A stretch of DNA of 62,290 nt. Source: Oscillospiraceae bacterium (GTDB lineage: Bacteria; Bacillota; Clostridia; Oscillospirales; Oscillospiraceae). Shown here piece after piece: positions 28,167-60,147 of this stretch. The notes under the pieces are model-generated. The model was not told the DNA's origin and did not search any database. It saw only the letters and a program-made list of their open reading frames with translations. The position numbers and the translations under genes were made by a program. The stretch spans positions 1 to 62,290 of the forward strand of contig JAFXAW010000048.1 of the NCBI GenBank assembly GCA_017522015.1, read 5' to 3'. How positions within the stretch are numbered: position 1 is the stretch's first letter; each line of letters begins with the position of its first letter.

Positions 28167-28400
28167 TTAAATAGAGAACGCAACCAGCACGACGTCCTTG
28201 CCGGTCTTCTTGCTCAGCAGCTGCTCAAGCTCCGAGATCTTAGCCAGCGCCTCGGCCTCACCGCTCAGCTCAGCGTACTTCACAGGGGAGTAAGCAACCA
28301 GGGAAACGTCCTTGCCGGTTTTTGCGGCCAGCTCTTTTTCCAGTGTGGTGATGGATTCCAGCAGATCTTCGCGGCCGTTGAGATTGGTGTAGTTGTTCAT
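28167..28400 (-). CDS. 77-residue protein with an internal repeat, in a riboswitch-controlled operon
   Basis: Starts at ATG 28400 in GGAGGCAAGCGCATG, 16 bases after the DUF4430 lipoprotein stop. No signal peptide. Two similar halves are visible: LEKELAAKTGKDVSLVAYS and LEQLLSKKTGKDVVLVAFS, each a predicted helix followed by a strand. I do not recognise the family. Co-transcribed with the DUF4430 gene under the minus-strand cobalamin element, so it may be cytoplasmic and linked to corrinoid use (inference). Confidence 0.7.
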   Translation of the reverse strand: MNNYTNLNGREDLLESITTLEKELAAKTGKDVSLVAYSPVKYAELSGEAEALAKISELEQLLSKKTGKDVVLVAFSI

Positions 28401-28416
28401 GCGCTTGCCTCCGGCC

Positions 28417-28767
28417 TTATTCGGGCTTGAACGTGTAGACAGCGCCGTCCTCCACGTTGGTGGCGTCAACGCCGGTCTGGGCGTATTCACCGTTGATGTA
28501 GAAGGCCCAGTATTTGCCGTCCTTCTCCCAGTCCAACGCAATGCCGTTGACTTCGTCCACGTACAGGCCGTACTCGGTGGTGTGGCCCTTGAGCAGACCT
28601 TCTTCGATCAGCGCTTCGCCGACGGTGGCGGCATCAGTCTTGATTTCGTGCGTGGTCTCTTTGCCGTCCAAATCGGTGGTCACAACGGTGAAGGAGGTCT
28701 TTGCGCTGCAGGCGGCCAGGGTGAACACCATGATCAGCGCAAGCAGCAGGGGAAGCAGTTTTTTCAT
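28417..28767 (-). CDS. DUF4430 lipoprotein (transcobalamin beta-domain-like), cobalamin-riboswitch controlled
   Basis: 116 residues, ATG after AGGAG. Lipobox LAAC with Cys20. The mature part is one DUF4430 domain: FTVVTTDLDGKE, VGEALIEEGLL, then GLYVDEVNG and YWAFYINGEYAQTGVDAT, and a closing DGAVYTFKPE. DUF4430 corresponds to the small C-terminal beta domain of animal transcobalamin and intrinsic factor, which closes over B12. The riboswitch-like leader 5' of it supports a corrinoid-binding surface role, though binding is not proven by sequence. Confidence 0.88.
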   Translation of the reverse strand: MKKLLPLLLALIMVFTLAACSAKTSFTVVTTDLDGKETTHEIKTDAATVGEALIEEGLLKGHTTEYGLYVDEVNGIALDWEKDGKYWAFYINGEYAQTGVDATNVEDGAVYTFKPE

Positions 28768-28825
28768 TTTGATTTCTCCTATAAGCAGTCTTCTTCATTA
28801 CCGGACGCGCAGCTTATAAAGAGAT

Positions 28826-28912
28826 GAGTTGCTCCGTGCAACCGACTGAGCGTTTTTTGACACATCACGGCGGCGGTCCCGCACAGGACTTGCACCTGTT
28901 TCCCACGGAAGC
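28826..28912 (-). promoter_or_regulatory. Cobalamin riboswitch (short form) upstream of the DUF4430 lipoprotein
   Basis: On the minus strand the RNA would begin just before CGTGGGAAACAGGTGCAAG, followed by TCCTGTGCGGGACCGCC and GCCGTGATG. This matches the cobalamin core (GGGAA..GGTG.AA.TCC....C.G..CC..C..CTGTGA). A downstream GTTGC-ACGGA-GCAAC hairpin could supply the loop for the kissing interaction. The long P7-P11 arms of larger forms are absent, so this is a compact class. About 60 bases separate it from the start codon, and no terminator is obvious, suggesting translational control. Confidence 0.75.
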
Positions 28913-28918
28913 AAAGTT

Positions 28919-28947
28919 ATTATAGCACCATCTTTTTTTCAGTTCAA
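28919..28947 (-). promoter_or_regulatory. Promoter of the riboswitch-DUF4430 transcript
   Basis: TTGAAC (28942-28947), 17-base spacer, consensus TATAAT (28919-28924) on the minus strand, positioned so that transcription starts at the 5' edge of the cobalamin core. Confidence 0.85.
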
Positions 28948-29063
28948 CCCGGAAAAAGCACAAAATAAATGCCGTCTTGAAACCCGCAGATCTGTGTGAT
29001 AACCTAATGCGGAAAGATCGGCTGTAAAAAATCAGGAGCAAAAATAAACGGAGAGTGATCGAA

Positions 29064-29609
29064 ATGACGGAGATGGAACTGCGCAGCTTGGCGGAGGAAG
29101 CGGGTTTTCGTGCGGCTGTGATTTCTGCGAAGGATATTCCGGTGGACGGAAATTTTCGGAAATTCTGCGAGGACAACCTTTGCGGCAAGTATAATGCCAA
29201 CTATTCCTGCCCGCCCGGCTGCGGCACGGTGGAGGAAGTCCACGGAAGGCTGCTTGCTGCGGATAAGGCGCTGGTGCTGCAGAAGGTCTATGACGTCGGC
29301 AGCTATGAGAACAAGGAAGCGATCCTGCGATCCCAAAAGAATCTGAACGCCGCAGTTTTGGAACTGGCGGAGAATCTTCGCCGGAACGGCATGGATTGCT
29401 TCTGCCTGGGCTACAACGGATGTCCCCTGTGCGAGCCCTGCAAACAGAAGCTGGGGGAGCCCTGCCCGTTTCCGGAGAAGCGGATCAGCTGCATATCCGC
29501 ATACTGCATTGATGTGAGTAAGCTTGCGGACAAGTGCGGCCTGGACTTTGCCTGGGTGCCGGAAAAGCTGTTTCTCTTTGGCATGATTGCATTTCGAAAG
29601 AACGTATAG
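29064..29609 (+). CDS. DUF2284 predicted metal-binding protein
   Basis: 181 residues; ATG 29064 after GGAGAG (a GTG three codons earlier overlaps that site). Cysteine motifs include FCEDNLCGKYNANYSCPPGCG near the N-terminus, then GYNGCPLCEPCKQK and GEPCPFPEKR, the pattern of DUF2284 proteins, which are predicted to bind Fe-S or other metals. No membrane segment. Divergent from the DUF4430 lipoprotein and upstream of the tandem riboswitches; a weak promoter (TTGAAA at 28977, TAACCT at 29000) fits. Function unknown, and a link to corrinoids is only positional. Confidence 0.85.
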   Translation: MTEMELRSLAEEAGFRAAVISAKDIPVDGNFRKFCEDNLCGKYNANYSCPPGCGTVEEVHGRLLAADKALVLQKVYDVGSYENKEAILRSQKNLNAAVLELAENLRRNGMDCFCLGYNGCPLCEPCKQKLGEPCPFPEKRISCISAYCIDVSKLADKCGLDFAWVPEKLFLFGMIAFRKNV

Positions 29610-29635
29610 CGTTTTCATATGTGCAAAATGCACTA

Positions 29636-29664
29636 TTGCAATTTGCCGGAGGGTGAATTATAAT
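29636..29664 (+). promoter_or_regulatory. Promoter of the tandem cobalamin riboswitch leader
   Basis: TTGCAA (29636-29641), 17-base spacer, consensus TATAAT (29659-29664), 30 bases after the DUF2284 stop. Confidence 0.8.
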
Positions 29665-29675
29665 ATACGCGAAAA

Positions 29676-29886
29676 TCGAACAGAGGCCCTTTGGCTGTAA
29701 AGACAGAAATGTCAGACCTTGGGGCTACATAAGGGAATGGGGTCAGGATTTTTTCCAAATCCCCGCATTGACCAATACCGTGGGCGTCGAGATGAGCATC
29801 CGTTGGCGAAAGCCAGTCATTGGGGCAACCTGAGAAGGCAGGATGTTTGATCGTTTGAGGCGCGAGTCGGGAGACCTGCTGGAATC
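29676..29886 (+). promoter_or_regulatory. Cobalamin riboswitch 1 (tandem, first copy; conserved loop expanded)
   Basis: Recognisable parts in order: AGGCCCTTTGG, AAGGGAATGGGGT, CCCCGCATTGACC, the GCATCCGTTGGCGAAAGCCAGTCATTGG region, TGAGAAGGCAGGATG and the closing GCGAGTCGGGAGACCTGC. The loop that normally reads GTGAAAATCC is replaced by GTCAGGATTTTTTCCAAATCC, about ten bases longer. Followed at once by a terminator, so an off-switch by termination is likely if it is still functional. Confidence 0.75.
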
Positions 29887-29907
29887 GATGGAATATTTGC
29901 CAAGAAT

Positions 29908-29961
29908 GGTTATGGTGATGTTCTGCCTGTTTAATGGGCATAACGGCCATAACCTTTTTTT
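29908..29961 (+). terminator. Terminator behind riboswitch 1
   Basis: GGTTATGG / CCATAACC stem with inner TGCC / GGGCA pairing, followed by seven to eight T. Confidence 0.75.
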
Positions 29962-29984
29962 GTTGTGGCGATATAAGTGAATAA

Positions 29985-30172
29985 ATTGTTCCCGTGGCCG
30001 GACATGCGGCATGCGTATGCCCGGCTGAACAAGAGAATGGGGTGAAAGTCCCCGCGCTGCCGGCGCTGTAAGTGTCGAGATGGCCTGCCGTTGACGAAAG
30101 TCAGTCATTGGATTCTTTTCCGAGAAGGCGGGCGGGTCATCGCTTGAGACACAAGTCAGAAGACCTACGGGA
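29985..30172 (+). promoter_or_regulatory. Cobalamin riboswitch 2 (tandem, second copy)
   Basis: GAGAATGGGGTGAAAGTCCCC, then GCGCTGCCGGCGCTGTAAG, GCCTGCCGTTGACGAAAGTC, AGTCATTGG, CGAGAAGGCGGGCGG and the end GAGACACAAGTCAGAAGACC give a canonical cobalamin aptamer. It lies on the same transcript as riboswitch 1 and is followed by its own terminator. Confidence 0.88.
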
Positions 30173-30233
30173 ATATGTACTGCTTCTTTGTACCCGTGCG
30201 ATGGGCAAAGGGGCTTTGCGGTCATGCAAAAAG

Positions 30234-30274
30234 CAACTGCGGCAGTAAGCTTTCGTTACTGCCGCAGTTTTTTG
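30234..30274 (+). terminator. Terminator behind riboswitch 2
   Basis: A perfect 14-base stem (AACTGCGGCAGTAA / TTACTGCCGCAGTT) followed by a T run, 19 bases before the next start codon. Confidence 0.88.
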
Positions 30275-30292
30275 TTATGAGAGGAAAAAGTG

Positions 30293-30700
30293 ATGGCATA
30301 CCCCGGGAGACAGAATATTTACGAAGCGACGATCCGAAGAATGGTTCAGGAATCCCTGGCGCAGCAGGAACAGGACTTTCGGCAGCAGCACGCAGCGGAT
30401 ACAGATGCGCAGCTTCTGAAATATCTTCGCGCTTGTGCAAACCGCCTGCACCACACGCCGTGGCCGGGCGAGATTGTCGGCGGAAGCTTTATTCAGGAGC
30501 GCATCGGCTCCTGGAACCGGGCGCTGGTCCTGGCAAGATTGCCCGCCCCCACAACGGCGAATCAAAGCAAATCCTTTGCAAGAGTTCAGAAGGAAACAGA
30601 AAAGCAAAAAGAAATTTACAGACAGCGAAAAGCCGCGAAAAAGGAACTGGCAAATCAGCGGCGGCTTCAACAGGAAGCCAAAAGGAATTCCTCCAAATAA
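30293..30700 (+). CDS. Small basic protein with a homing-endonuclease-associated (HNH) repeat
   Basis: 135 residues; ATG 30293 after GAGAGG. A single repeat near residues 40-85 reads LLKYLRACANRLHHTP, WPGEIVGGSFIQERIG and SWNRALVLARLP, resembling the HNH_repeat/HEAR DNA-binding module (PF18780-like). The C-terminal third is a lysine/arginine/glutamine-rich coiled-coil-like tail. No nuclease motif is seen, so this may be a DNA- or RNA-binding protein or an endonuclease remnant. It sits between riboswitch 2 with its terminator and riboswitch 3, so its expression should fall when cobalamin is plentiful. Role unknown. Confidence 0.65.
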   Translation: MAYPGRQNIYEATIRRMVQESLAQQEQDFRQQHAADTDAQLLKYLRACANRLHHTPWPGEIVGGSFIQERIGSWNRALVLARLPAPTTANQSKSFARVQKETEKQKEIYRQRKAAKKELANQRRLQQEAKRNSSK

Positions 30701-30748
30701 GCTTGTATTAATCGGTTTGTGGAATTGGCATTTCACAGGCCTTTAATA

Positions 30749-30781
30749 GGGCTGCCGGTTGTTCCTCCCCTCCGGCAGCCC
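30749..30781 (+). other. GC-rich hairpin between the HNH-repeat gene and riboswitch 3
   Basis: A perfect 10-base stem (GGGCTGCCGG / CCGGCAGCCC) with a pyrimidine-rich loop and no T tract after it. It could end or stabilise the upstream mRNA. No clear promoter is seen between it and riboswitch 3. Confidence 0.5.
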
Positions 30782-30894
30782 GATGCCCGGCAGTGTTCTC
30801 CAGGGAACGGCACCGGGCAAAATGAACCGCCTTTTATGGGTGGCTCAAAAAATCCGGCTTACTTTGTGGCAAATGCGCGACCCGGAGAGGGAAT

Positions 30895-31092
30895 CGACGG
30901 ACACGCATTCTTGTTCTGCTGAACAAGGGAACCCGGTGGGAATCCGGGACACGGCGGATCTGATCCGAGGTGCTGTATGCATGGAGCCATTACCTTTTCT
31001 GCGAAAGCAGGTCATTGGGAGCAATCCTGAGAAGGCGGGGTAAGGGCGCCGGGGAAACCCTGAACGTGCGAGTCAGAAGACCTACAAACTGC
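30895..31092 (+). promoter_or_regulatory. Cobalamin riboswitch 3 heading the dockerin/ECF operon
   Basis: GAACAAGGGAACCCGGTGG then GAATCCGGGACACGGCGG form the aptamer core. CTGCGAAAGCAGGTCATTGG, CCTGAGAAGGCGGGGTAAG and the terminal GTGCGAGTCAGAAGACC complete the cobalamin pattern. Downstream (31093-31307) is a structured leader with an imperfect CTGCATA... / ...TTATGCAG pairing and further short hairpins but no T-tract terminator, so control may be translational or via the CTGCATA element. The operon start codon is 216 bases after the aptamer. Confidence 0.85.
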
Positions 31093-31307
31093 ATAGCAAA
31101 TGCCCCCTTGCATAAAGGGCGGCCTTATGCAGCTTAAGCTGAGCATACCGTAACGGTATGAGCCGGTTTAACCAGCTTAGCGCCTTCGGGCGAGAAGATA
31201 ATACTGTTTTAATGAGGGGGTCTTTTATGCTGTAAAGATGTAAGTGCATGCCATTTCCGCCTTAGGGCGAAGATTATATTAATTACAATAAGGAGGTCTT
31301 TTTTGTA
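31093..31307 (+). other. Structured leader between riboswitch 3 and the first operon gene
   Basis: No gene. Contains TGCATAA/TTATGCA (31109-31130), a CATACCG/CGGTATG hairpin enclosed by AAGCTG/CAGCTT, and a GCGCC/GGGCG-type hairpin. A two-codon ORF (ATG CTG TAA) behind GAGGGGG lies at about 31230. The last 20 bases hold AAGGAGG, the ribosome site of the next gene. Confidence 0.5.
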
Positions 31308-34250
31308 ATGAAAAGACGATTGCTTTCCCTGCTCCTTGTGCTTGTCATGGCGCTGGGAATGCTGCCCACCATAGCTGTTGCCGCACCGGCCGAGAGCGAA
31401 GGTGTGTATCAAATCGGCACAGCGGAGGAGCTGCTGTGGTTTGCGCAGGAAGTCAAGGGTGGCAACACCGGTATCAGCGGTGTGCTAACGGCTGATATTG
31501 ACATGAGTAACTATGCAAGCTGGCCCGGCATCGGCACGAACCATCAACCGTTTTCCGGTTCGTTTGATGGCCAGGGTCATACGGTTACTTTCCGGAACGC
31601 CATGTGGGGCATGTTTGGTTTTGTTGCGGGTAAATCCGGTGCAATTGTTACCATTCAGAATGTAAAAACCGCCGGCAGTGTCCAGCGCAGTCCCATTGCC
31701 CATGATGTGACGTTTACGCACATTATCGGCTGTATCAATGGTGCAACCGTCACAAAGGCAAATGAGAACTATGTTGGCGGTATCGTAGGTTCTGTCCGGT
31801 ATACGCAGGATGGTACCACTTATACCAATGATGTGCTGATTCAAAATTGCGGCAATGTAGCCAGTATCACCGCCAATGACTATGTGGGCGGTATTATGGG
31901 TAGCGCCTGCTATGTCAACACCCGGATCGAGAACTGCTACAACACCGGCAATATCCATGGTAATACCTACGTAGGTGGTATTGTGGGTTGGCACCAGAAC
32001 TACAAGGGGAGTAACCACGTAAAAAATAGCTACAATACCGGCCGTGTGACCGGCAGTGAAGCTGTTGCGGGTATTGCAGGCCATCTGAATAACGGTGTTA
32101 CAGTTCAGAACTGCTATAACGCAGGTGCCAGCACCTACGCAATTATTGGTCGGCAGTACAATGCCACCAATGTGCTCTCCAACACCTATTTCCTGGGTGC
32201 TGCCTCTGCCAAGAGTGTTCCGGACTATACCACCTATGAAAGCCAGGAGCCTGTTTATCGGGCTGCGGCAAAAACCGCCGCGGATATGGCAAGTGCAGAC
32301 TTTGCCGCACTTATGGGTGGCGCTTACAAGGCAAGCTGTCCGTATCCCGTACTCAGCTGGCAGACTGCAACGGAACACACCGGTGCTGTCTGCGACAACT
32401 GTAAGCTGGGCAGCACGGAGAAGGAACTTTATGATGTTTCCTTCCAACAGCATGCGGGCTACACGCTGAACGGTGAATCCAAGGTAACCCAAGGCCAAGC
32501 CTATTCCTTCACCATTACCATCAGCGAAGGATATGAGAAAATCGCAGGCTTTGCTGTCAAAGTCAACGGCGAGGAAGTGACTCCCGCCAGCGATGGTAAG
32601 TACACGGTTGTAAATGTGCAGGAACCCCTGTCCGTTACGGTTCGCAATGTCCAGATCATTCCCGGCAACCATGTGATCAGCCTTCCCGGTGAGGGAAATG
32701 GTTATAAAATCACCGGCGAAAAGTCGGCAAAGCGCGATGAACCCTACACCTTTGAACTTTCTTTTGTGGATGGCTTCAAGGCAGGAACAGATTTCAAGGT
32801 GATTGCCCAGGAGATCGTTCCCCAGAGCGAACTGGACAATGGAACAGTTCCCTCCGAAATTACGCTGACCGGCAAGAATGGCCTCTACACCATTCCCACC
32901 GTGCAGAAGGACTACCGCATTCTGGTGTCCGGCGTGGTGGCAGTGCCTACTGTCGAGCCCGTAACGGTGAACTTTACTGTCACGGAAGGCTGGTATGAAT
33001 TCCACGAACCCAACGATTCCGGAGATGTGATCATTGACAAAACCCTTACTGTTCCTTACTTTGACCTGTCCCTCTACGGTCTTGAAAAATATTACTACAA
33101 TCCCTACTGCTATGTAGACGAGGCCGGTAATATCAAGACTCGCCAGGAAAAGGGCACCCCGGAAACCGCCTACAATCAGATCACGGTGATGCACGCATTC
33201 ATTGTGGCCACAGAGTTGTTCTATTTGGGTTACAGCCAGGATGAGGTGGGCACGGGCCGTTCCTATCGGGAAATGATCACAGTCACCAACTTTAAAGGTG
33301 AGCAGGTGACCGTCAGCAAATTTGCCAATGCTATTTCCTGGACTCAGGATGCCGGTTCCAGCTTCATGGATTTCTGGGATCATGGCACCAATCTGAATTA
33401 CTATGTCAACTACGCATATCCCCTGGCATACCCCGGTTGGGGTTCCACCGGCGATCAGGTTGTGATGAAGAACGGTGATGTGATCAGTGTTCACCTGATT
33501 ACCGGTGTGGGCAGCGGTTCCAACTTCGGTTTCTTCACCGTAAACGACACCAATAACAAGTACAACCCCGGTACCGATGTGGTCAACGAGATCACTGTGG
33601 ATCAGGGTCAAAAGGTGAAGCTGACCTATTTCTGGACTGCTACCTCCGGTAACTACGCTACTAGCTACAAGTTGCAGAAAAATAAGCAGCTGTACTGGAT
33701 CAATGTGGAAGAAGATGGTGTTCCCGGTTATATGGAACCGGATGAGATCCTGGACTACGATGAGGAGAACGGAAAACCCATTTATGGTTGGGATGATAAC
33801 GACAATCCCATCTATGTATCCTCCAAAGGCTGGAGAGATGAGCCTCTTGGTAAGAACACGGTTCTGAAAACCGACAAAAACGGTGTGATCACCATCGACA
33901 CCGCAGGTCTGGAACCCGGTACTTACTACATTGGCGGCATCGGTGGCTTTGAGGAAGGCGGCGGTGTCGACAACGCAGGCTTTGTTTCTGCTGGCTACGA
34001 AGCCGGTGCGTCCTTCTTCAAGCTCGTTGTGCAGGAGTACAACGGCAAGCTGGGCGATGTGAACAACGATACCTATATTACCGGTGCGGATGCCAATCTG
34101 ATCATTCAGCATGTTTTGGGACTGAATGAGGTTAATGACAGTATCGCCGACGTAAACGGTGACGGCTACGTCACCGGCGCGGATGCCAACTTGGTTACGC
34201 AGAAAGTTTTGGAACTGATCGATTCTTTCCCTGCTGAAAAAAATAAGTAA
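31308..34250 (+). CDS. Secreted GLUG-repeat protein with DUF4430-like module and C-terminal dockerin
   Basis: 980 residues with a Sec signal peptide (cleavage near AVAA, ~26). Residues ~150-290 have GLUG-type repeats (YVGGIVG, YVGGIMG, YVGGIVGWH). Beta-sandwich repeats follow to ~545. A module at ~549-770, with SSFMDFWDHGTNLNYYVN and VVMKNGDVISVHLITG, resembles DUF4430. A type-I-like dockerin ends the protein: LGDVNNDTYITGADANLI at ~915 and IADVNGDGYVTGADANLV at ~946, two calcium-loop/helix repeats. First gene behind riboswitch 3. Probably an adhesive or ligand-binding subunit docked onto the operon's cohesins. GLUG and dockerin assignments are firm; DUF4430 is tentative. Confidence 0.82.
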   Translation: MKRRLLSLLLVLVMALGMLPTIAVAAPAESEGVYQIGTAEELLWFAQEVKGGNTGISGVLTADIDMSNYASWPGIGTNHQPFSGSFDGQGHTVTFRNAMWGMFGFVAGKSGAIVTIQNVKTAGSVQRSPIAHDVTFTHIIGCINGATVTKANENYVGGIVGSVRYTQDGTTYTNDVLIQNCGNVASITANDYVGGIMGSACYVNTRIENCYNTGNIHGNTYVGGIVGWHQNYKGSNHVKNSYNTGRVTGSEAVAGIAGHLNNGVTVQNCYNAGASTYAIIGRQYNATNVLSNTYFLGAASAKSVPDYTTYESQEPVYRAAAKTAADMASADFAALMGGAYKASCPYPVLSWQTATEHTGAVCDNCKLGSTEKELYDVSFQQHAGYTLNGESKVTQGQAYSFTITISEGYEKIAGFAVKVNGEEVTPASDGKYTVVNVQEPLSVTVRNVQIIPGNHVISLPGEGNGYKITGEKSAKRDEPYTFELSFVDGFKAGTDFKVIAQEIVPQSELDNGTVPSEITLTGKNGLYTIPTVQKDYRILVSGVVAVPTVEPVTVNFTVTEGWYEFHEPNDSGDVIIDKTLTVPYFDLSLYGLEKYYYNPYCYVDEAGNIKTRQEKGTPETAYNQITVMHAFIVATELFYLGYSQDEVGTGRSYREMITVTNFKGEQVTVSKFANAISWTQDAGSSFMDFWDHGTNLNYYVNYAYPLAYPGWGSTGDQVVMKNGDVISVHLITGVGSGSNFGFFTVNDTNNKYNPGTDVVNEITVDQGQKVKLTYFWTATSGNYATSYKLQKNKQLYWINVEEDGVPGYMEPDEILDYDEENGKPIYGWDDNDNPIYVSSKGWRDEPLGKNTVLKTDKNGVITIDTAGLEPGTYYIGGIGGFEEGGGVDNAGFVSAGYEAGASFFKLVVQEYNGKLGDVNNDTYITGADANLIIQHVLGLNEVNDSIADVNGDGYVTGADANLVTQKVLELIDSFPAEKNK

Positions 34251-34264
34251 AAAGGAGTTTTTAC

Positions 34265-37243: not shown

Positions 37244-37282
37244 AACGTAAAAAACCTACAGATCCAAAAGCAAAGTCCGGTT

Positions 37283-46290: not shown

Positions 46291-46308
46291 CGGGAGCAGG
46301 TATTGCTT

Positions 46309-52700: not shown

Positions 52701-54324
52701 TGATTTGATCACCTATGCCGGAGATAATATTTTCCGGATCGACACGGTTACCGGTGAGATTCTGGCAACCGGAACGATGGACCACAAGTCCAGCTTTTCC
52801 ATTACACCGCCTACCTATGCAGAGGGTATGGTCTTTGTTGCGCTTTCCAACGGCTGTGTGCAGGCATTCAATGCCAGTACATTGGAATCCCTCTGGATCT
52901 ATAAAGATCCCCTGGGTGGCCAGCCCAACTGCCCGCTGACCGTGAAGAACGGCTATCTCTATACCGGCTTCTGGAACAGCGAAACCGGCGATGCCAACTT
53001 CGTCTGTATGACTATTACCGATGAAGACCCCACCCAAACCAAGGAAAGCAAGTGCGTTTCCTGGTATCAGACAGCAAAGGGCGGCTACTACTGGGCAGGC
53101 GCCTATGTTGGTGACGGTTATGTCCTGATCGGTACCGATGACGGCACAAACCTGTGCAATTCCAAGACTTCCAGCCTGCTCCTTCTGGATGCCAAGAGCG
53201 GCAGACTTCTGGACAGACGGGATAACCTTAATGGCGACATCCGTAGTACCATCGTCTATGACGCTGCAACAAATGCTTATTACTTTACGGCCAAGGGCGG
53301 CACATTCTACAGCGTGCAGGTGTCCGGTGGACAGATGCTGACAAACCTGTGGTCTGTGGCGTTGGTCAATGGTACCGGTGGTATTCCTATGAGTACCTCC
53401 TCTCCTGTCGTGTATAACGGCAGAGCGTATGTGGGTGTTTCCGGTTCGTCTCAGTTCGGTGCATATTCCGGTCATAACATTACCGTGCTGGATTTGAATT
53501 CCAGATCCATCGCTTACAGTGTGCCCACCCAAGGTTATCCTCAGACCAGCGGCCTGCTGACCACGGCCTATGAGAGTGAAAGCGGCTATGTCTATGTATA
53601 CTTTTTCGATAACATGACACCCGGTAAGCTTCGTGTCCTGAGAGATAAACCCGGCATGACGGCGGCGGACTATGTGACTACAGAAAAAGAATACACCGCG
53701 GCCTATGCTCTGTTTACTCCCACTGGGGACCATGCCCAGTATGCAATCTGCAGCCCCATTGTGGATGAATATGGCACCGTCTATTTCAAGAACGACTCTG
53801 CTCATCTGATGGCTTTCGGCAGCGCCATTGAGAAGATCGAGATCACAACAGCACCGAACAGGCTTTCTTACGTGACGGGGGAGAAGTTCGATCCCACCGG
53901 CATGGTGGTGACCGCTACCTATGCAAACGGCAAGACCCGTGACATTACCCGCTATGTGGCATGGAGCGGGGAAACGCTGACAGACCGGGATGCTACCTTT
54001 ACCATTTCTTTCCCGTATGTGATGTATCACAACCAGGAGGACGGAACGGAGATGATCACCGGTGTGGTCAGCAAAACACCTTCTGTTACGCTGGAACTGA
54101 CGATTATGGACGGGACACTGGGTGATGTAAATCTCGACGGAGCTGTTGATCTGGCGGATGCACAGATGATTTTGGATTATGAAGCAAAGACCGTGAATCG
54201 GGAACTGAGCATACCGGTTGCGGATGTCAGCGGTGACGGCAGCATTGACAGCAACGATGCCGTCCTGATCCGACAGTTCCTTGCCGGAAAGTTTGACAAG
54301 TTCCCGGCAGAGAAAGGCGAATGA
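49768..54324 (+). CDS. Giant secreted dockerin protein with beta-propeller and Ig-like domains
   Basis: 1518 residues; ATG 49768 after AGGAAGGAG. Signal peptide to ~29. A beta-grasp-like segment (~35-125: YITYAEGQTLGEALQNSGH) is reminiscent of DUF4430/SLBB-type domains. A helical stretch (~130-185) and several beta-sandwich repeats (cadherin-like/DUF-type) run to ~920. A PQQ-type beta-propeller spans ~928-1350 (WSPWPNFRGSNTNN, SPIMVGGDLITYAGDNIFRID, LLLLDAKSGRLLDR). Ig-like Big_3 ~1357-1445 (LSYVTGEKFDPTGMVVTATY). Dockerin at ~1451-1515 (GDVNLDGAVDLADAQMIL, ADVSGDGSIDSNDAVLIR). Likely a docked binding subunit; ligand unknown. Its position next to the lipoproteins and ECF genes suggests a role at the uptake end of the system. 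Confidence 0.82.
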   Translation: MNTKKGLRLAGVLLALLLIVGILPVGAEAAQPAGKFVLVAEAGGKLVIAPEYITYAEGQTLGEALQNSGHTFTGLEQGQVTAIDGVTGNYTRSDQNGGYDLSAPASSVTHFCFSERPSSESKPNEGLVMLMTAMADYQEKEADVQKAAKSEYDTAKKNFVGATNDDARMLAYDLDQAVREYEETLSGTQYAVSFTDGSKLYSVENFPGVTIVAENPYGKVWTDDGDGKMALPMGNYVFHVAQNGLRVSGSVAVSADVSFTVNLPEQLWLKTDTFRLSGSYGAASNEEHKFTDAEFSPGEWTDRQMTVLVSDMFVGAVYSYAEYDTAQLSKAPVFTAIYTMASTGKQMEKKLAFESWNSGAYEVLSKGAAGNTIVYRLTHEADDGYTYSQDYTVTFDRIPTLTSITVADQDGTDQAATYAFSGDVKEYTYKVLDTTTSVSISATGLGADYVIAVNDQPLTEPITVPVNGVTDVEIVVSAGGYSNAYTLTIQPGEGKTLSFLSDKDVTIEVVNSNGVVMPFTTHRETETQNRYKYTLVPGETYSYIATKDTYYHIADDFRLENVANSTITVDFADMGNWLSELSLGTDSGNRYKGNLPLDKAFAPENHSYQATYVDTEHIAYLWITGSEANAEIQAIYTQIFSDDIYHGEEYTIDMVSGKKTGEKLNRFLMDENPIENILTIRLTKEENGVTYYQDYLVEFKRELTLKDISAKCDGVTTTLVRQNGTPGFKSGIRTYDITVSMAAQTLDLTLNRYTDNTCYGEETVGYEILVDGVDVTESGFASIALDGTMNTQVVTVTVKNEKAPDGTGIYTLNVLKSPPVEATFSITPDNALLNIYEVMSGERLWPDQKGAFQLCEGYSYVYTATEYGYVGKSGTLEVTRNDQNELVVKDGDVSYQVTESGAGGAVAISWELPKAPANSSINPGVWSPWPNFRGSNTNNAVADFRVPTAAENGTLYWANKLGSGYDADAVGSPIMVGGDLITYAGDNIFRIDTVTGEILATGTMDHKSSFSITPPTYAEGMVFVALSNGCVQAFNASTLESLWIYKDPLGGQPNCPLTVKNGYLYTGFWNSETGDANFVCMTITDEDPTQTKESKCVSWYQTAKGGYYWAGAYVGDGYVLIGTDDGTNLCNSKTSSLLLLDAKSGRLLDRRDNLNGDIRSTIVYDAATNAYYFTAKGGTFYSVQVSGGQMLTNLWSVALVNGTGGIPMSTSSPVVYNGRAYVGVSGSSQFGAYSGHNITVLDLNSRSIAYSVPTQGYPQTSGLLTTAYESESGYVYVYFFDNMTPGKLRVLRDKPGMTAADYVTTEKEYTAAYALFTPTGDHAQYAICSPIVDEYGTVYFKNDSAHLMAFGSAIEKIEITTAPNRLSYVTGEKFDPTGMVVTATYANGKTRDITRYVAWSGETLTDRDATFTISFPYVMYHNQEDGTEMITGVVSKTPSVTLELTIMDGTLGDVNLDGAVDLADAQMILDYEAKTVNRELSIPVADVSGDGSIDSNDAVLIRQFLAGKFDKFPAEKGE

Positions 54325-54346
54325 GAAGTACCTGCGCATGAAGCAA

Positions 54347-54379: not shown

Positions 54380-54399
54380 GCAAAAGATAGGAGAAGTAT

Positions 54400-55383
54400 A
54401 TGAAAAAATTATTATCCTGGATTTTGATCCTGACCGCGTTGTTCTCTCTGGCTGCCTGCGGCAAAAAAGAGCCCGGGGCGGGGCAGGGCCAACTGGAAGT
54501 GCTGGCGGATATCATGACGGAAACCGGCGAATTCCTGCACAGCAGCGTGGAAAATCCCACTTTCGGCAGCGTCGGTGGGGAATGGCTGATTCTGGGTCTT
54601 GCAAGATCCGGTTTGGAGGTTTCGGGGGAATATTACGAAACCTACTTCCAGAACCTCTCGGCCTATACCGCGCAGCAGGGCGGCGTTCTGCACGAGAAAA
54701 AATACACCGAATACTCCCGCGTGATTTTGGCAGTGACGGCAATCGGGGAGGATCCCACGGATGTGGGCGGATTTAATATGCTGCAGCCGCTGGCGGATTT
54801 TGAACAGACAGTCTTTCAGGGTGTCAACGGCCCTGCCTTTGCGCTGTTGGCGCTGGACAGCGGCAACTATGAGATTCCTGAGAATATCGCGGACAGCACC
54901 CAGGCCACCCGGGATATGTATGTGGACTACATCATCAATGCCCAGCTTCCGGAGGGCGGCTGGTGTCTGATGGGCGACGAGGCGGAAATTGATGTGACGG
55001 CTATGGCGCTGCAGGCGCTGGCGAAATATCAGGAGCGCAAGGATGTGGCAGAGGCAATCGAAAAGGGCCTTGCGATTCTGTCTTCCCGTCAGAACGAAAC
55101 GGGCGGGTATCAATACAGTGACGCCGAGCAGGTGAGCAGCGAATCCGTTTCCCAGGTGATCGTTGCGTTGGCCGAACTGGGGATTTCGCTGAATGATGAC
55201 CGCTTCGTTAAAAACGGAAAATCCTTGCTGGACGGGCTGCTGCAGTTTCGGCAGGAGGATGGCGGATTTTCTCATCTGATCGACGGCGAAACCGATCTGC
55301 TGGCAACGGAGCAGGCCTTCTATGCGCTGGTTGCATCTGACCGCGTGGCGCGGGGAGAATCTGCTCTATACAGCATGAAGTGA
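54400..55383 (+). CDS. Lipoprotein with alpha/alpha toroid (transcobalamin alpha-domain / prenyltransferase-repeat fold)
   Basis: 327 residues, ATG after AGGAG. Lipobox SLAAC with Cys20. Mature part consists of helical repeats with Q-x3-GG-x turns: AQLPEGGWCL near 185, SRQNETGGYQY near 230, RQEDGGFSHL near 287, as in squalene-cyclase/prenyltransferase repeats. Animal transcobalamin and intrinsic factor use the same toroid as their B12-binding alpha domain. The next gene encodes a separate DUF4430 lipoprotein, equivalent to the transcobalamin beta domain. The pair, next to an ECF transporter and behind a cobalamin riboswitch, looks like a split bacterial transcobalamin (inference). No cyclase catalytic motif is seen. 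Confidence 0.82.
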   Translation: MKKLLSWILILTALFSLAACGKKEPGAGQGQLEVLADIMTETGEFLHSSVENPTFGSVGGEWLILGLARSGLEVSGEYYETYFQNLSAYTAQQGGVLHEKKYTEYSRVILAVTAIGEDPTDVGGFNMLQPLADFEQTVFQGVNGPAFALLALDSGNYEIPENIADSTQATRDMYVDYIINAQLPEGGWCLMGDEAEIDVTAMALQALAKYQERKDVAEAIEKGLAILSSRQNETGGYQYSDAEQVSSESVSQVIVALAELGISLNDDRFVKNGKSLLDGLLQFRQEDGGFSHLIDGETDLLATEQAFYALVASDRVARGESALYSMK

Positions 55384-55406
55384 AAAACGGACTCGGAGGT
55401 TTTACA

Positions 55407-55922
55407 ATGAAGCATGTCGTGAAAGTATTGATTTTCGTGCTTGTGCTGTCCCTTTTCTGCGGTTGCGGCAAAGCCGATACGGCCAAAGTTGCCGACAAAA
55501 ACGGCGACGGCAAACTGACCTGCACTTTAGAGGTTCGCTGTGATACGCTTCTTGACAGTCTGGACAAGCTGCCGGCGGAGAAAGTCGGACTCATACCGGA
55601 AAATGGCCTCATCCTGACTGCGACAGAAGTGGAATTCTCCGGCGGAGACTCCGTTTTCGATGTGTTCCGCAAGGTGCTTCGGGAAGAAAAGATCCACTTT
55701 GAGTATGTGGATGCTTCGGCTTACGACTCCGTATACATTGAGGGCATCGGCAACCTCTATGAGTTCGATTGCGGACCGCAGTCCGGCTGGATGTTCAGCG
55801 TCAATGACGTGTATCCGGGCTTGGGGTGTTCCACCTATACACTGGCGGACGGCGATGCGATCGTTTTCAGCTATACCTGTGATCTGGGCGCCGATTTGGG
55901 CGCGGAGAAAGTGGATGAATAA
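55407..55922 (+). CDS. DUF4430 lipoprotein (transcobalamin beta-domain-like)
   Basis: 171 residues from ATG 55407, seven bases after GGAGG; an in-frame start nine codons upstream overlaps the previous gene. Lipobox LFCGC with Cys20. DUF4430 core: TCTLEVRCDTLLDSL, DSVFDVFRKVLREEKIHFEY, IGNLYEFDCGPQSGWMFSV, and the ending DGDAIVFSYTCDLG. Homologous in layout to the small DUF4430 protein at 28417-28767, both riboswitch controlled. It overlaps the EcfT start by eight bases, indicating tight co-translation with the transporter. Confidence 0.9.
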   Translation: MKHVVKVLIFVLVLSLFCGCGKADTAKVADKNGDGKLTCTLEVRCDTLLDSLDKLPAEKVGLIPENGLILTATEVEFSGGDSVFDVFRKVLREEKIHFEYVDASAYDSVYIEGIGNLYEFDCGPQSGWMFSVNDVYPGLGCSTYTLADGDAIVFSYTCDLGADLGAEKVDE

Positions 55923-56799
55923 AGACGCCTTTTCGGGATTCCACCCGGCGGTGAATCTGGCTTTCTTTGTTGCAGCCTTAGGCATGACCATGTTTATCCA
56001 GCAACCGGTGTACCTGCTGATCTCCATGATCAGCGGGTGCGCCTACTTGCTTTATTTGCAGGGGAAAAAGGGTTTTCTCCGACAGGTGGGCTATTTGGCG
56101 CCCATCCTCATTTTGATGGCCATCATGAACCCCATGTTTAACCATGAGGGGGTAACGGTGCTGTGGTACCTGCACAACGACAACCCCGTTACGGTGGAGG
56201 CAATATGCTTTGGCCTTGCCTCTGCGGTGATGATGGGTGCGTCCATCGTGTGGTTCAACTGCTGCAATACGGTGTTTACCTCCGACAAGATCATTTATCT
56301 TTTCGGCAGGGTAATCCCCGCCCTGTCGCTGCTGATCTCCATGACGCTTCGATTCGTGCCGCAGTTTAAGAACTTCCTGCAAAGTGTCCTGCGAACACAA
56401 AAGGCGATGCATAAACCGGAGAATACGAAAGAAAAGCTGCAGCAGGCTCTGTCTGCCTTTTCCGCTACCGTCAGCTGGGCCATGGAACAGTCCATTATCT
56501 CCGCCGATTCCATGAAGAGCCGGGGCTACGGTGTCCAGGGCAGAACGGCTTTTTCTATTTATACCTTTGAGAAGCGGGATGGAATAGCGCTTGGCATACT
56601 TGCTTTGCTGTGCGCTGGCGCGGCATTCCCGCATTTGTTCGGACAGATGGGGTTTGCGTACTATCCCAGCCTGACCGGGGAGCTTTTGGGACCGGTACAG
56701 ATCCTGGCCTACCTGTGCTACGGTGGAATGTGCAATCTGCCGCTGATTATTGATGTAATGGAGGATCGGAAATGGAACGCTTTAAGATCCAAAATTTGA
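55915..56799 (+). CDS. ecfT: ECF transporter transmembrane component (EcfT-like)
   Basis: 294 residues; ATG 55915 overlaps the DUF4430 stop. Five to six membrane segments and the EcfT coupling region: ALSLLISMTLRFVPQFKNFL, then MEQSIISADSMKSRGYGVQGR, which carries the Ala-Arg-Gly-type motif (here SRGYG) that contacts the ATPases. Energy-coupling scaffold for vitamin uptake. It overlaps the ATPase gene by 28 bases. Confidence 0.9.
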   Translation: MNKDAFSGFHPAVNLAFFVAALGMTMFIQQPVYLLISMISGCAYLLYLQGKKGFLRQVGYLAPILILMAIMNPMFNHEGVTVLWYLHNDNPVTVEAICFGLASAVMMGASIVWFNCCNTVFTSDKIIYLFGRVIPALSLLISMTLRFVPQFKNFLQSVLRTQKAMHKPENTKEKLQQALSAFSATVSWAMEQSIISADSMKSRGYGVQGRTAFSIYTFEKRDGIALGILALLCAGAAFPHLFGQMGFAYYPSLTGELLGPVQILAYLCYGGMCNLPLIIDVMEDRKWNALRSKI

Positions 56800-59387
56800 C
56801 CTTTACATATCCGGAGCAGGAGATCCCGGTCCTGCGGAATGTATCTGCGGTGCTGCATCCCGGTGACTTTGCTGTTCTGGCGGGGCCTTCCGGCTGCGGC
56901 AAGTCCACCATGCTGCGGCAGCTGAAAACGGTTCTTGCGCCTCACGGTAAAAAAGAGGGCGAGATCCTCTTTAACGGAACGCCTCTGGATCAAGTGGACA
57001 ACCGCACACAGTCTGCGAGGATCGGATTCGTTCTGCAGGATCCCGATAGCCAGATCGTAACCGACAAGGTGTGGCATGAACTGGCTTTCGGCTTGGAAAG
57101 TCTGGGTGTGGATAGCACCACCATCCGGGGCAGAGTCGCGGAAATGGCCAGCTTTTTCGGCATCCAGACCTGGTTTCACATGGAGGTGACGCAGCTCTCC
57201 GGCGGACAGAAACAGTTGCTGAATCTGGCATCCATTATGGTGCTGCAGCCGGATGTGCTGATTCTGGACGAGCCTACCAGCCAGCTGGACCCCATTGCGG
57301 CAACCGACTTTTTGCAGACGCTTGGCCGCATCAACCGGGAGCTGGGCACCACGATTCTGATCTGTGAGCACCGGCTGGAAGACGTGATCCCCATGGCAAA
57401 CCGCCTGCTGATCCTGGACAAGGGCGTGCTGATTGCCGACGACACCCCGGTGGGGAGCTTTGAAATTCTGCGAAACCTGAATCACCCCATGCTCCATTCC
57501 ATGCCAACTCCCATGCAGATATGGAGCGTTTTGAACTGGGATACACCCTGTCCCATGACGGTCAGCGACGGAAGAAATCAGTTGACCGAATGGGCAGATG
57601 AGCATGCGTTAACGCAAATTCCGGAGCGGCCTGCAGAGGTACCTAAGGATGAGCCTCTCATTACCCTTGACGAGGTGTGGTTCCGCTATGAAAAGGACAC
57701 GCCGGACATTCTGAAGAGTGTGTCCATGAAGGCATACCCGGGCGAACTGCTGTGCATCCTCGGCGGCAACGGCACGGGCAAGAGCACAACGCTCTCCGTG
57801 CTTTCCGGCATCCGCAAGCCCTATCGCGGCAAGTTTAGCTGCAAAGCAAAACGGGTGACCGCGCTTCCCCAAAATCCCCAGATGCTGCTGGTGAAAAAGA
57901 ACGTGCGGGAAGATCTGCTTTCCGTGTTCCCCGGTAAGAAGCTGCATGAGGTGGCGGACAAAATCGGGGAAATGGTTGCCCTCTGCAGACTGGAGGGTCT
58001 GCTCGACCGGCATCCCTTTGATCTGTCCGGCGGAGAGCAGCAGCGGACGGCTCTGGCGAAAGTTCTGCTGCAGAACCCGGAGGTTCTGCTGCTGGACGAG
58101 CCGACAAAGGGCGTGGACAATGATTTTAAGATCACCTTTGCACAGATTCTCAAAGAACTGACGGATCGGGGCGTGTGCGTTATCATGGTCAGTCACGACG
58201 TGGAATTCTGTGCCCAGTATGCAGACCGCTGCGGGCTGTTCTTTGACGGAAGCATCGTCACGATGGATGCACCGCAACCGTTTTTTGCCGGCAAGAGCTT
58301 TTATACCACTGCGGCAAACCGGATGGCACGTCATCTGCTTCCCAATGCGGTGACATCGGAAGACGTGATCGTTGCCTGCGGTGGGGAAGTACCCAAAAGG
58401 GAACTGCCCGGATGCCCGGAAAAGGTTGATGTTGCGCCTCCCGAAGAGAGAAAGCCTCAAAAGCTGCCCTTGTGGCGGAAAATCCTGGGCGCTGTCAGCG
58501 GGGCGGTGTTCATTGGCCTTTTGCTCTACACATCCCTTGCGCTGGACCTGAGTGCCCTTTATCAGGAAGGTGACTTCATAGGACGGTATGGCTGGCTGTA
58601 TGCGGTCATGTTTCTTTCCTTTGGCGTCTTTGCCGCCTGTATCAGCCGAAAGCCGTCCAGACGGGAGCAGCGGCTGATGAGCGGAAAACTGAGCACGCGG
58701 ACTAAGCTCACGATTCTCCTTTCGCTGATGCTCATCCCGCTAACCCTCTGGGTTGGCCTCAAGTGGGGCGGCGGCAGGAAATATATGCTCATTTCCCTTG
58801 CGATTATTCTGGAAACCATGCTGCCGTTTTTCCTGATTTTTGAGGGACGCAAGCCGCAGGCGAGAGAACTTGTGATTTTGTCGGTGCTCAGCGCTTTGGC
58901 AATCGGCGGAAGAGCAGTGTTTTTTGCCATGCCCGGATTCAAGCCCGTGGCCGCCATGGTGATTCTGACCGGCGTTGCCTTTGGCGCAGAGGCTGGCTTT
59001 ATGGTTGGTTCGATGACGATGTTCTGCTCCAACGTGCTCTTCGGTCAGGGTCCCTGGACTCCGTGGCAGATGTTCGCTATGGGCATTATGGGCTTGCTTG
59101 CCGGCGTGCTGTTCCGTAAGGGCATTTTGCACCGGGAGCGCTTTTCTTTGAGTATTTTCGGCGCACTGGTGACATTTTTGATTTACGGTGGTATTATGAA
59201 TCCGGCGTCGGTTTTGATGTATCAGGCGAATCCCGACTGGCAGATGGTTCTGACTGCCTATATCACCGGCGTTCCGGCGGATGCCATTCATGCGCTGGCA
59301 ACGGGACTGTTTCTGTGGTTCCTCTCAGAGCCTATGCTTGAAAAGCTGGACCGCGTAAAGGTCAAATATGGACTGATTGAGAGATGA
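56772..59387 (+). CDS. Fused ECF transporter: two ATPase domains plus S-component-like membrane domain
   Basis: 871 residues. ATPase 1 (~1-235): Walker A AGPSGCGKST near 37, signature LSGGQKQLLNLAS, Walker B VLILDEPTSQLD. ATPase 2 (~293-520): LGGNGTGKSTT, LSGGEQQRTALAKVLL, VLLLDEPTKGVD. The C-terminal part (~565-871) has six or more membrane helices with a SALAIGGRAVFFAMPGFKPVAAM stretch, then GAEAGFMVGSMTMFCSNVLFGQGPWTPWQM, resembling ECF S components. EcfA1, EcfA2 and S are usually separate chains; all in one is unusual. Vitamin specificity cannot be read directly; cobalamin is inferred from riboswitch 3 and the neighbours. Confidence 0.88.
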   Translation: MERFKIQNLTFTYPEQEIPVLRNVSAVLHPGDFAVLAGPSGCGKSTMLRQLKTVLAPHGKKEGEILFNGTPLDQVDNRTQSARIGFVLQDPDSQIVTDKVWHELAFGLESLGVDSTTIRGRVAEMASFFGIQTWFHMEVTQLSGGQKQLLNLASIMVLQPDVLILDEPTSQLDPIAATDFLQTLGRINRELGTTILICEHRLEDVIPMANRLLILDKGVLIADDTPVGSFEILRNLNHPMLHSMPTPMQIWSVLNWDTPCPMTVSDGRNQLTEWADEHALTQIPERPAEVPKDEPLITLDEVWFRYEKDTPDILKSVSMKAYPGELLCILGGNGTGKSTTLSVLSGIRKPYRGKFSCKAKRVTALPQNPQMLLVKKNVREDLLSVFPGKKLHEVADKIGEMVALCRLEGLLDRHPFDLSGGEQQRTALAKVLLQNPEVLLLDEPTKGVDNDFKITFAQILKELTDRGVCVIMVSHDVEFCAQYADRCGLFFDGSIVTMDAPQPFFAGKSFYTTAANRMARHLLPNAVTSEDVIVACGGEVPKRELPGCPEKVDVAPPEERKPQKLPLWRKILGAVSGAVFIGLLLYTSLALDLSALYQEGDFIGRYGWLYAVMFLSFGVFAACISRKPSRREQRLMSGKLSTRTKLTILLSLMLIPLTLWVGLKWGGGRKYMLISLAIILETMLPFFLIFEGRKPQARELVILSVLSALAIGGRAVFFAMPGFKPVAAMVILTGVAFGAEAGFMVGSMTMFCSNVLFGQGPWTPWQMFAMGIMGLLAGVLFRKGILHRERFSLSIFGALVTFLIYGGIMNPASVLMYQANPDWQMVLTAYITGVPADAIHALATGLFLWFLSEPMLEKLDRVKVKYGLIER

Positions 59388-59397
59388 AGGGTAATTT

Positions 59398-60147
59398 ATG
59401 AAGAGAGAGAATATTTATCTTTCCACAATCGCATCCGATGCGGAGCAGGTGGCAAAGGAATACGGAGTGAATCTGGAGATTGCCGAGTTCTGCACTGCGT
59501 GGAACATGGACGAGAAATTTGACGAGGTGGACAAAGACGTTCAAAAGAAGATGGAGGGCATCTCCAAAAGTCTGCTCCATGCGCCGTACAACGAGCTGTT
59601 CCCCTGCGCCATCGACAAAAAAGCCCGGGCGCTGGCGGCGGAGCGTTACCGGCAGGCGATTGATTTGGCCAAGCGCTACGGCGCGTCTAAAGTCATTGTC
59701 CACGGCGGCTATAATCCCTGGATCTATTTTCCCGTTTGGTACACGGAGCAGTCCGTGCTGTTCTGGAAAGAATTTCTGCAGGAAGATCCGGGTGTGGAGA
59801 TCGTGCTGGAAAATGTGCTGGAAACGGAACCGGAGTGGCTTTTGGACATTGTGAAAGGTGTGGATGACCCTCGACTGAAGCTGTGCCTGGACATCGGCCA
59901 CGTGAATGCTTATTCCAAGATTCCCGTGATGGAGTGGCTGGAAAGCTGGGCGCCTTATATCAGCCATTTTCACATTCACAACAACGACTCGTCCTGGGAT
60001 ACCCACAACGCTTTGGATGACGGAAACATTCCGATGAAAGAGCTGCTGCTGCGCGCAGAAGAAATCTGTCCGAATGCAAGCTTTACGCTGGAGCTGATGG
60101 AGGATCAGTCCTCTATGGTCTGGCTGGAAGAAAACGGATTGATCTGA
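59398..60147 (+). CDS. Sugar phosphate isomerase/epimerase-like TIM-barrel protein
   Basis: 249 residues, ATG eleven bases after the ECF stop. Xylose-isomerase-like (AP endonuclease 2) barrel: SKVIVHGGYNPWIYFP, VEIVLENVLETEP, LKLCLDIGHVNAYS, YISHFHIHNNDSSWDTH and FTLELMED give the expected His/Glu/Asp metal ligands. Substrate unknown. It is the last gene of the apparent corrinoid operon, so it might process a corrinoid side chain or ribosyl part, but that is only positional. Its 3' end (59965-60183) is duplicated at 61580-61798. Confidence 0.85.
   Translation: MKRENIYLSTIASDAEQVAKEYGVNLEIAEFCTAWNMDEKFDEVDKDVQKKMEGISKSLLHAPYNELFPCAIDKKARALAAERYRQAIDLAKRYGASKVIVHGGYNPWIYFPVWYTEQSVLFWKEFLQEDPGVEIVLENVLETEPEWLLDIVKGVDDPRLKLCLDIGHVNAYSKIPVMEWLESWAPYISHFHIHNNDSSWDTHNALDDGNIPMKELLLRAEEICPNASFTLELMEDQSSMVWLEENGLI

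Follow-up and report, generated by a model that had tools for sequence, protein, structure and literature searches.

In this study, we analysed the 62,290-nt contig JAFXAW010000048.1 of an Oscillospiraceae bacterium (assembly GCA_017522015.1; the whole stretch is called the window hereafter) and found, behind cobalamin riboswitches, an operon that, in our interpretation (probability roughly 0.68), serves the acquisition of corrinoid (vitamin B12) by a corrinoid-dependent bacterium of the Oscillospiraceae type, combining surface capture by cohesin–dockerin proteins with import by an energy-coupling factor (ECF) transporter. This interpretation is supported by the likeness of the importer to CbrT, by riboswitches upstream of toroid and DUF4430 genes and by the swapping of surface anchors among homologues of one of the proteins, and further by the relative RGIG4265, where a gene downstream of tandem riboswitches joins a dockerin to DUF4465, a B12-binding domain. 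An earlier note on this DNA had described, within a locus at 28167–60147, a 29-kb apparent operon of 15 genes. The same-strand run of 15 plus-strand genes, with intergenic gaps of -28 to 183 nt, could be confirmed. It covers 31308–60147; the stretch 28167–31307 lies outside it and holds leader RNAs, a small open reading frame (ORF) and a divergent unit. Names such as 31308 give the start coordinate of a gene in the window; L and G numbers denote fetched loci and genomes used for comparison.

The leader before 31308 is about 1.6 kb long and carries three tandem cobalamin riboswitches, all above the gathering score of the Rfam covariance model RF00174 (31.5 bits). The riboswitch assignment thus passed the covariance-model check, with three tandem copies in place of the single one noted earlier. 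Our own riboswitch model, R1, was built from 26 seeds with RF00174-type cores, the middle riboswitch of the window among them, and matches riboswitch 3 at full length (E 2.4e-24).

29636–29664, plus strand: promoter-like TTGCAA-17-TATAAT, just 5' of the riboswitch array
29696–29897, plus strand: cobalamin riboswitch 1 (RF00174 34.3 bits; R1 E 6.7e-18)
29908–29961, plus strand: terminator-like hairpin with U run after riboswitch 1 (folding z -4.0)
29975–30186, plus strand: cobalamin riboswitch 2 (RF00174 61.1 bits; R1 E 1.6e-25, itself an R1 seed)
30235–30269, plus strand: terminator-like hairpin after riboswitch 2 (terminator scan, z -5.4)
30926–31083, plus strand: cobalamin riboswitch 3, nearest the operon (RF00174 48.3 bits, partial, model positions 45–169)

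The hairpin at 29908–29961 is not among the sites of the consensus terminator scan, and promoter-like sites are barely above chance, with three in the stretch against 2.2 expected in shuffles.

The distal part of the operon encodes the predicted import machinery. Its features and those of two further DUF4430 genes of the region are the following:

54400–55383, plus strand: alpha/alpha-toroid lipoprotein, candidate corrinoid-binding half (Pfam Prenyltrans E 7.7e-7; lipobox LAAC)
55407–55922 (open frame from 55380), plus strand: DUF4430 lipoprotein, candidate corrinoid-binding half (Pfam 1.2e-16; unusual lipobox FCGC)
55909–56799, plus strand: ECF T component (Pfam CbiQ 2.1e-6)
56772–59387, plus strand: fused ECF A-A'-S protein (Pfam ABC_tran on two stretches; S domain CbrT-like)
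41649–45311, plus strand: protein of 1220 aa, hydrophobic segment at the N terminus, DUF4430 domain at 854–900 (local DUF4430 profile 1e-11)
28417–28767, minus strand: DUF4430 lipoprotein of 116 aa (Pfam DUF4430 E 8.5e-9; lipobox LAAC)

The fused ECF transporter of the earlier note was recovered, with T, A, A' and S all present and A-A'-S in one chain. Up to E 1 the S domain has two matches in the PDB, 6fnp_A at 1e-8 and another S component at 0.35. 6FNP is ECF-CbrT, an importer of cobalamin and cobinamide according to an excerpt of PMC5997447, and its 182-aa chain A is, judging by chain length, probably CbrT itself. All components of ECF-CbrT, namely T, two ATPases and a CbrT-like S, are present in the operon, and among solved S components CbrT is the nearest to that of the window. 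The window differs from that system in fusing A, A' and S into one chain, with T encoded in the operon and with lipoproteins and a putative surface mesh around it. The T component scores 27.3 bits, far under the cobalt CbiQ equivalog cut-off of 111.8 bits. A corrinoid as the likely substrate of the importer is the best supported step of our interpretation.

The toroid lipoprotein and the DUF4430-like proteins noted earlier were likewise found, 41649 by the local profile only, as it has no Pfam match. Human intrinsic factor and transcobalamin consist of an alpha/alpha toroid and a DUF4430-type C-terminal domain with cobalamin held between them. The same two fold classes are split over two genes in the window. 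Several relatives have them joined in one chain in that order, whereas some other relatives have the reverse order, with DUF4430 before the toroid. From linkage and fold class, we infer that the toroid and DUF4430 proteins capture corrinoid.

This linkage extends far beyond the window. Among 245 genomes of the order, DUF4430 was found in 176, RF00174 in 155 and dockerins in 149. At least 37 of the best 150 DUF4430 matches (29 genomes) have an RF00174 riboswitch on their own strand no more than 12 kb upstream, compared with two downstream and none on the other strand among the matches listed, and at least 52 of the 150 fall in genomes with a listed riboswitch; these co-location counts are lower bounds, the best 150 per list having been used and stricter filters applied in the riboswitch search. 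A search of the genome collection with the toroid alignment gave at least 554 relatives, and 80 loci were kept (L053–L132), including loci of Paenibacillus silvestris, Flavonifractor plautii and Cellulosilyticum ruminicola. According to local profiles, toroid and DUF4430 genes occur together in 68 of these loci, of which 61 have an ECF gene in addition; these are again lower bounds, since ORF calling sometimes kept an antisense frame, and six loci show no called toroid gene although all 80 were matched by tblastn. Upstream on the toroid strand, R1 detects a riboswitch in 52 loci at E 0.01 (49 at 1e-4) and in 34 of the 42 loci whose upstream sequence extends over the full 10 kb, while three loci have one downstream and two on the other strand. 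Six of the 52 positive loci are contributors to R1 (L070, L091 and L075, as well as L066, L077 and L123, which are the same records as seeds L016, L019 and L025). A chance link of DUF4430 and toroid genes with riboswitches was rejected in view of this strong strand- and side-specificity. In the 80 loci the toroid directly precedes DUF4430 in one chain in 22 proteins, and the reverse order occurs in 10. SLH repeats were found in 20 of 30 toroid proteins, the window toroid being a lipoprotein instead. The core of riboswitch, toroid, DUF4430 and ECF genes is widespread in Bacillota. A minimal layout, with a cobalamin riboswitch, a short DUF4430 protein and a stand-alone ECF S component, was seen in L039, L043 and L044.

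In the window, the core is accompanied by six surface proteins with cohesin or dockerin modules:

31308–34250, plus strand: secreted dockerin protein of 980 aa (Pfam Dockerin_1 E 2.3e-9, dockerin at 915–968)
34265–37243, plus strand: secreted cohesin–dockerin protein of 992 aa (cohesin 22.6 bits, just under the cut-off of 24.1)
37427–39781 (open frame from 37394), plus strand: secreted Big_2, cohesin and dockerin protein (Big_2 7.7e-16; cohesin 30.2 bits, over cut-off)
39778–40467, plus strand: small cohesin–dockerin adaptor of 229 aa (Pfam cohesin 1.2e-9, 39.6 bits, over cut-off; dockerin 1.0e-7)
40471–41526, plus strand: membrane-anchored cohesin-like protein with two Flg_new repeats (Flg_new 1e-38; cohesin weak, E 0.012)
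49768–54324, plus strand: surface protein of 1518 aa (cadherin-like repeats 8.1e-9, PQQ beta-propeller PQQ_2 4.6e-12, C-terminal dockerin 7.6e-8)

The profile searches sustained the cohesin and dockerin assignments of the earlier note, some copies weakly. All five dockerins were found, those of 31308, 39778 and 49768 over the Pfam cut-off, and those of 34265 (21.4 bits alone, 30.5 bits with its neighbours in frame) and 37427 (Pfam E 0.017; 1e-24 by a local profile partly seeded from itself) with weaker scores. A loose paired calcium-loop motif is present in all five, with A at position 5 of the first loop in 34265 and a second loop ending in E in 39778 as deviations. As for the cohesins, those of 39778 and 37427 stand, that of 34265 falls just short and that of 40471 is weak; the latter protein has a transmembrane-like segment at 263, in line with its description as membrane-anchored, and its relatives match cohesin better (9.9e-11 and 1.6e-5). 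All four dockerins and all three cohesins found in the organism's own genome (91% complete) sit in the operon. As the earlier note had remarked, no carbohydrate-active enzyme stands alongside: Pfam scans of the operon recognised neither a glycoside hydrolase nor a carbohydrate-binding family. Apart from these modules, 31308 contains a GLUG-like stretch under the Pfam cut-off and an unnamed middle domain that recurs in relatives, where two of the proteins carrying it have dockerins, and 49768 contains a Big_3-like stretch under the cut-off. A BtuG-like origin of the 49768 propeller was considered and rejected, its PDB matches being repeat designs, BamB and one antibody chain, with no BtuG.

The N-terminal part of 49768 was searched in 300 genomes of the family and found in 14 genomes at 15 loci, the own genome and SIG483 included. 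Its homologues end in a dockerin at seven loci (G000, G001, G509, G560, G355, G359-C27 and G424; the dockerins of the window, G424 and G355 being Pfam matches and the remaining ones local-profile matches), in SLH repeats at three (G368, G461, G428) and in a membrane or sortase-like tail at one (G394). In G560, the gene adjoining the dockerin form encodes a protein with cohesin (1.8e-14) and SLH (6e-18). Since homologues of one protein carry either a dockerin or S-layer repeats, and since this neighbour joins cohesin to SLH, the cohesin–dockerin pair seems to be an exchangeable anchor or scaffold in the capture of corrinoid at the cell surface. The use of dockerins is not due to a lack of SLH, because nine SLH matches over cut-off occur elsewhere in the own genome.

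The operon form recurs in related genomes, as the conservation check of the earlier note had called for. In SIG483 (SVLI01000004.1), a member of the same genus, this operon is present behind three riboswitches; with a DNA identity of about 95% across most of its length, this copy adds little evidence. Compared in detail, SIG483 and the window share 95% identity from 37034 on, 81% at 29569–33625 and 67% at 33859–34186, with no blastn alignment at 34187–37033, so the riboswitch-near surface genes differ far more. RGIG8797, RGIG4265 and G424 are independent cases. In RGIG8797 (G263), two operon-strand riboswitches over the gathering score, three by R1, are followed by genes for proteins with a dockerin (2.2e-7), with a cohesin (9.9e-11) and with the 31308 middle domain, the last of these cut by the contig end; on the opposite strand, 4 kb away, two R1 matches, one over the gathering score, precede a protein with two DUF4430 domains. 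G424, from another genus and with a 49768 homologue of 29% identity, carries one riboswitch per strand (47.6 and 43.1 bits) and shows the gene order 49768-dockerin, 37427-like protein, cohesin/Flg_new protein (cohesin 1.6e-5), DUF4430, toroid, MoxR, DUF58 and TgpA, the 37427-like protein having a cohesin by local profile only and a dockerin of 19.9 bits, under the cut-off of 22.9. RGIG3893 (G262) shows three R1 matches on the operon strand and one divergent.

No single finding supports the interpretation more strongly than that in RGIG4265 (G294). Here, two riboswitches that exceed the gathering score and a third that falls short of it (24.1 bits; R1 E 6e-8) are followed by a small HNH_repeat ORF and then by one protein of 3393 aa with DUF4465 (8.5e-36) and dockerin (1.5e-17), the domains being matched on two stretches. 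According to an excerpt of PMC13398666, eight distantly related DUF4465 members bind B12, with a conserved HI loop and binding tyrosines. The HI loop of the RGIG4265 domain reads PGYF, compared with ASYF in 4jqr and PTYF in 4e9k, so that the conserved tyrosine is kept; a tyrosine is also present in the stretch NNTCY, which aligns with TNTVY of 9hmu and which we ourselves read as holding the probable DE-loop tyrosine. A second contig, taken as belonging to RGIG4265 since its genes equal those of L092, encodes a cohesin–dockerin protein (7.6e-9 and 7.4e-19), a 41649 homologue, TgpA, 49768-dockerin and a toroid. In a search of the 245 genomes of the order DUF4465 was found in none, while the positive control gave matches in Bacteroides. 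Riboswitches precede the first dockerin gene in the window, SIG483, RGIG8797, RGIG4265 (with the HNH_repeat ORF between) and G424.

In other lineages, local profiles revealed a toroid–dockerin fusion (L125:5587–7173), with a riboswitch only downstream of the toroid, and a fusion of two DUF4430 domains with a dockerin (L050:9672–11348), with no riboswitch over the gathering score in that locus. G121, with a dockerin 9 kb from a cobalamin riboswitch, was dropped, as local profiles found no DUF4430, toroid, ECF or cohesin there.

The host itself seems dependent on outside corrinoid, because no CbiD was found in its genome, which is 91% complete, and because two proteins with B12-binding domains score over cut-off. 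A further cobalamin riboswitch, the strongest RF00174 match of the genome (87.6 bits), lies on contig C27 at 73383–73561 (L001) and precedes what we take, by the look of the sequence, to be a BtuF-type lipoprotein gene.

We propose a model in which scarcity of corrinoid would let the operon be expressed through the three tandem riboswitches, as expected for this RNA class. Judging by their domains, the dockerin proteins 31308 and 49768 and the cohesin–dockerin links 34265, 37427 and 39778 would form a surface assembly ending in 40471, a putative membrane-held cohesin, and the resulting mesh could keep corrinoid-binding or supporting domains close to the membrane. The split lipoprotein pair, toroid 54400 and DUF4430 55407, would then take the corrinoid and hand it over to the importer formed by 55909 and 56772 with its CbrT-like S domain, and as a guess the MoxR-DUF58-TgpA set may aid folding or assembly of the surface proteins. 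We infer the scaffolding from the domains and from anchor swapping. A more far-reaching version is put forward tentatively, with a little less than an even chance: a dedicated corrinoid-catching complex, in which dockerin-borne B12 binders would attach to anchored cohesins only under B12 shortage, concentrating corrinoid and passing it via split intrinsic-factor-like lipoproteins to ECF-CbrT. The same cargo would be held by dockerin–cohesin, S-layer repeats or a membrane tail depending on the species, so that the cellulosome joint would work as a plug-in anchor in capturing a vitamin, and the halves of intrinsic factor would have free-standing bacterial counterparts.

Alternatively, the importer and lipoproteins could take up B12 while the cohesin–dockerin proteins act as adhesins towards mucus, fibre or B12-producing neighbours under the same riboswitches, providing attachment when B12 is short. 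Big_2, cadherin-like, Flg_new and GLUG-like stretches, which are common in adhesins, are indeed present, the operon differs most from that of SIG483 in the proteins encoded near the riboswitches, and a study of methane-oxidising consortia interpreted cohesin–dockerin complexes as adhesins (excerpt of PMC10553843). We nevertheless consider this unlikely, given the fusion of a dockerin to DUF4465 in RGIG4265, to a toroid in L125 and to DUF4430 in L050. Somewhat less probable still is that the captured ligand is another corrinoid or precursor (cobinamide, other lower ligands), or a stand-in ligand when B12 is short, rather than cobalamin. CbrT imports cobinamide too, as an excerpt of PMC5997447 states, and riboswitch control alone leaves the ligand of the surface proteins unnamed, but the CbrT-like S domain and the DUF4465 in RGIG4265 argue against ligands other than corrinoids. 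A small cellulosome or amylosome for polysaccharide or glycoprotein, with riboswitches that adjoin by chance or control the ECF genes only, comes to mind because such systems are the most familiar setting of cohesin and dockerin modules and because dockerins occur in 149 of the 245 genomes of the order. We rejected it as highly improbable, since no carbohydrate-active enzymes, neither hydrolases nor carbohydrate-binding families, were recognised in the operon, no dockerin was found elsewhere in the 91% complete genome, and riboswitches precede the first dockerin gene in all five genomes named above.

Several observations weigh against the interpretation proposed here. Corrinoid binding by the window's own dockerin proteins is its weakest step, because Pfam scans show no recognised B12-binding domain in any of them; the own genome is also without a DUF4465 match. 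Dockerins occur in only five of the 80 toroid loci and cohesins in none (local profile, fetched flanks), so that neither is needed for the core function, and 28 of the 80 loci are without an upstream riboswitch. In RGIG3893, the first protein has only a sub-threshold cohesin and no dockerin despite the riboswitches. Among the 15 loci of 49768 homologues, three (G312, G359-C39, G465) have no recognised anchor, no Pfam SLH search having been made there, one homologue (G338) is cut by a contig end and that of G355 has its frame broken by a single stop. Only six (G000, G001, G461, G359-C39, G424, G428) show an upstream riboswitch that exceeds the gathering score; several other loci end at contig borders, and R1 adds weaker same-strand matches far upstream in G465 (8.1e-6) and G312 (7.8e-4). 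Finally, the toroid profile reaches intrinsic factor in the PDB only at E 0.03, with the toroid part only and behind squalene cyclases (8e-9), and the DUF4430 profile has no credible PDB match.

The remaining features of the operon and its leader region are the following:

28170–28409, minus strand: small protein of 80 aa that contains a repeated TGKDV motif, encoded downstream of the divergent DUF4430 gene
28790–28928, minus strand: divergent cobalamin riboswitch candidate of adenosylcobalamin type (RF01482 42.5 bits, E 8.6e-6)
30290–30700, plus strand: small HNH_repeat ORF between riboswitches 2 and 3 (Pfam HNH_repeat E 6.8e-7)
45355–46290, plus strand: MoxR-type AAA ATPase (Pfam AAA_3 1.5e-55)
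46303–47445, plus strand: DUF58-like protein (Pfam 2.9e-4, 20.6 bits, under the cut-off of 23.4)
47460–49751, plus strand: TgpA-like transmembrane transglutaminase-fold protein (Transglut_core 3.6e-13; TgpA_N under cut-off)
59398–60147, plus strand: TIM-barrel protein, last gene of the operon (Pfam AP_endonuc_2 3.7e-23)

From the MoxR, DUF58 and transglutaminase-fold set of the earlier note, the MoxR protein and the transglutaminase core hold, while DUF58 was detected below threshold only, with the same neighbours in relatives. The divergent riboswitch, which precedes the DUF4430 gene 28417, stays a candidate, because it lies under the RF01482 gathering score of 50 bits, although R1 also matches it (E 1.4e-5). 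The DUF4430 lipoprotein 28417 in this divergent unit is identical at 70 of 140 aligned positions to the protein with two DUF4430 domains of RGIG8797, which is also located behind cobalamin riboswitches; the 80-aa protein matches no family over cut-off. Copies of the HNH_repeat ORF with 54% identity occur in RGIG3893 and RGIG8797 (L135:6095–6496; L133:10167–10496) and a two-repeat form in RGIG4265 (L143:2204–2881), in relatives within or just 3' of the riboswitch leader. The AP_endonuc_2 TIM-barrel also adjoins ECF genes in L055 (15778–16593) and L160 (1–438) and is found about 6 kb from them in L048 (15904–16662). After a gap of 231 nt, the operon is followed by a lipoprotein with DUF4358 and a transglutaminase core (60379–61596).

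The proposed system resembles the surface B12 capture of Bacteroides by BtuG, BtuH and BtuJ in that riboswitch-regulated extra surface B12 catchers stand beside an importer (excerpts of PMC12751083 and PMC13398666), and one relative of the window, RGIG4265, shares DUF4465 with it. Bacteroides employs outer-membrane lipoproteins and BtuB, while the window and its relatives use ECF import and cohesin–dockerin, S-layer or lipoprotein anchors. With cellulosomes the window has in common cohesins, dockerins, a cohesin–dockerin adaptor and a membrane-held cohesin, with a cohesin-SLH anchor in G560; it differs in having no recognised carbohydrate-active enzymes, in its cobalamin riboswitches and in B12 import genes as neighbours. 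In agreement with the earlier note, which knew of no described system of this kind, no paper bringing these parts together in one system was found in the open-access literature, and no description of surface B12 capture was found there for Bacillota; subscription journals and preprints lay mostly outside this search.

B12 is contested in the gut and, if our interpretation is correct, the finding suggests how gut Bacillota catch corrinoid. It would give DUF4430 and its toroid partner a testable function and suggest bacterial counterparts of intrinsic factor, and cohesin–dockerin joints would here serve cofactor capture rather than fibre breakdown.

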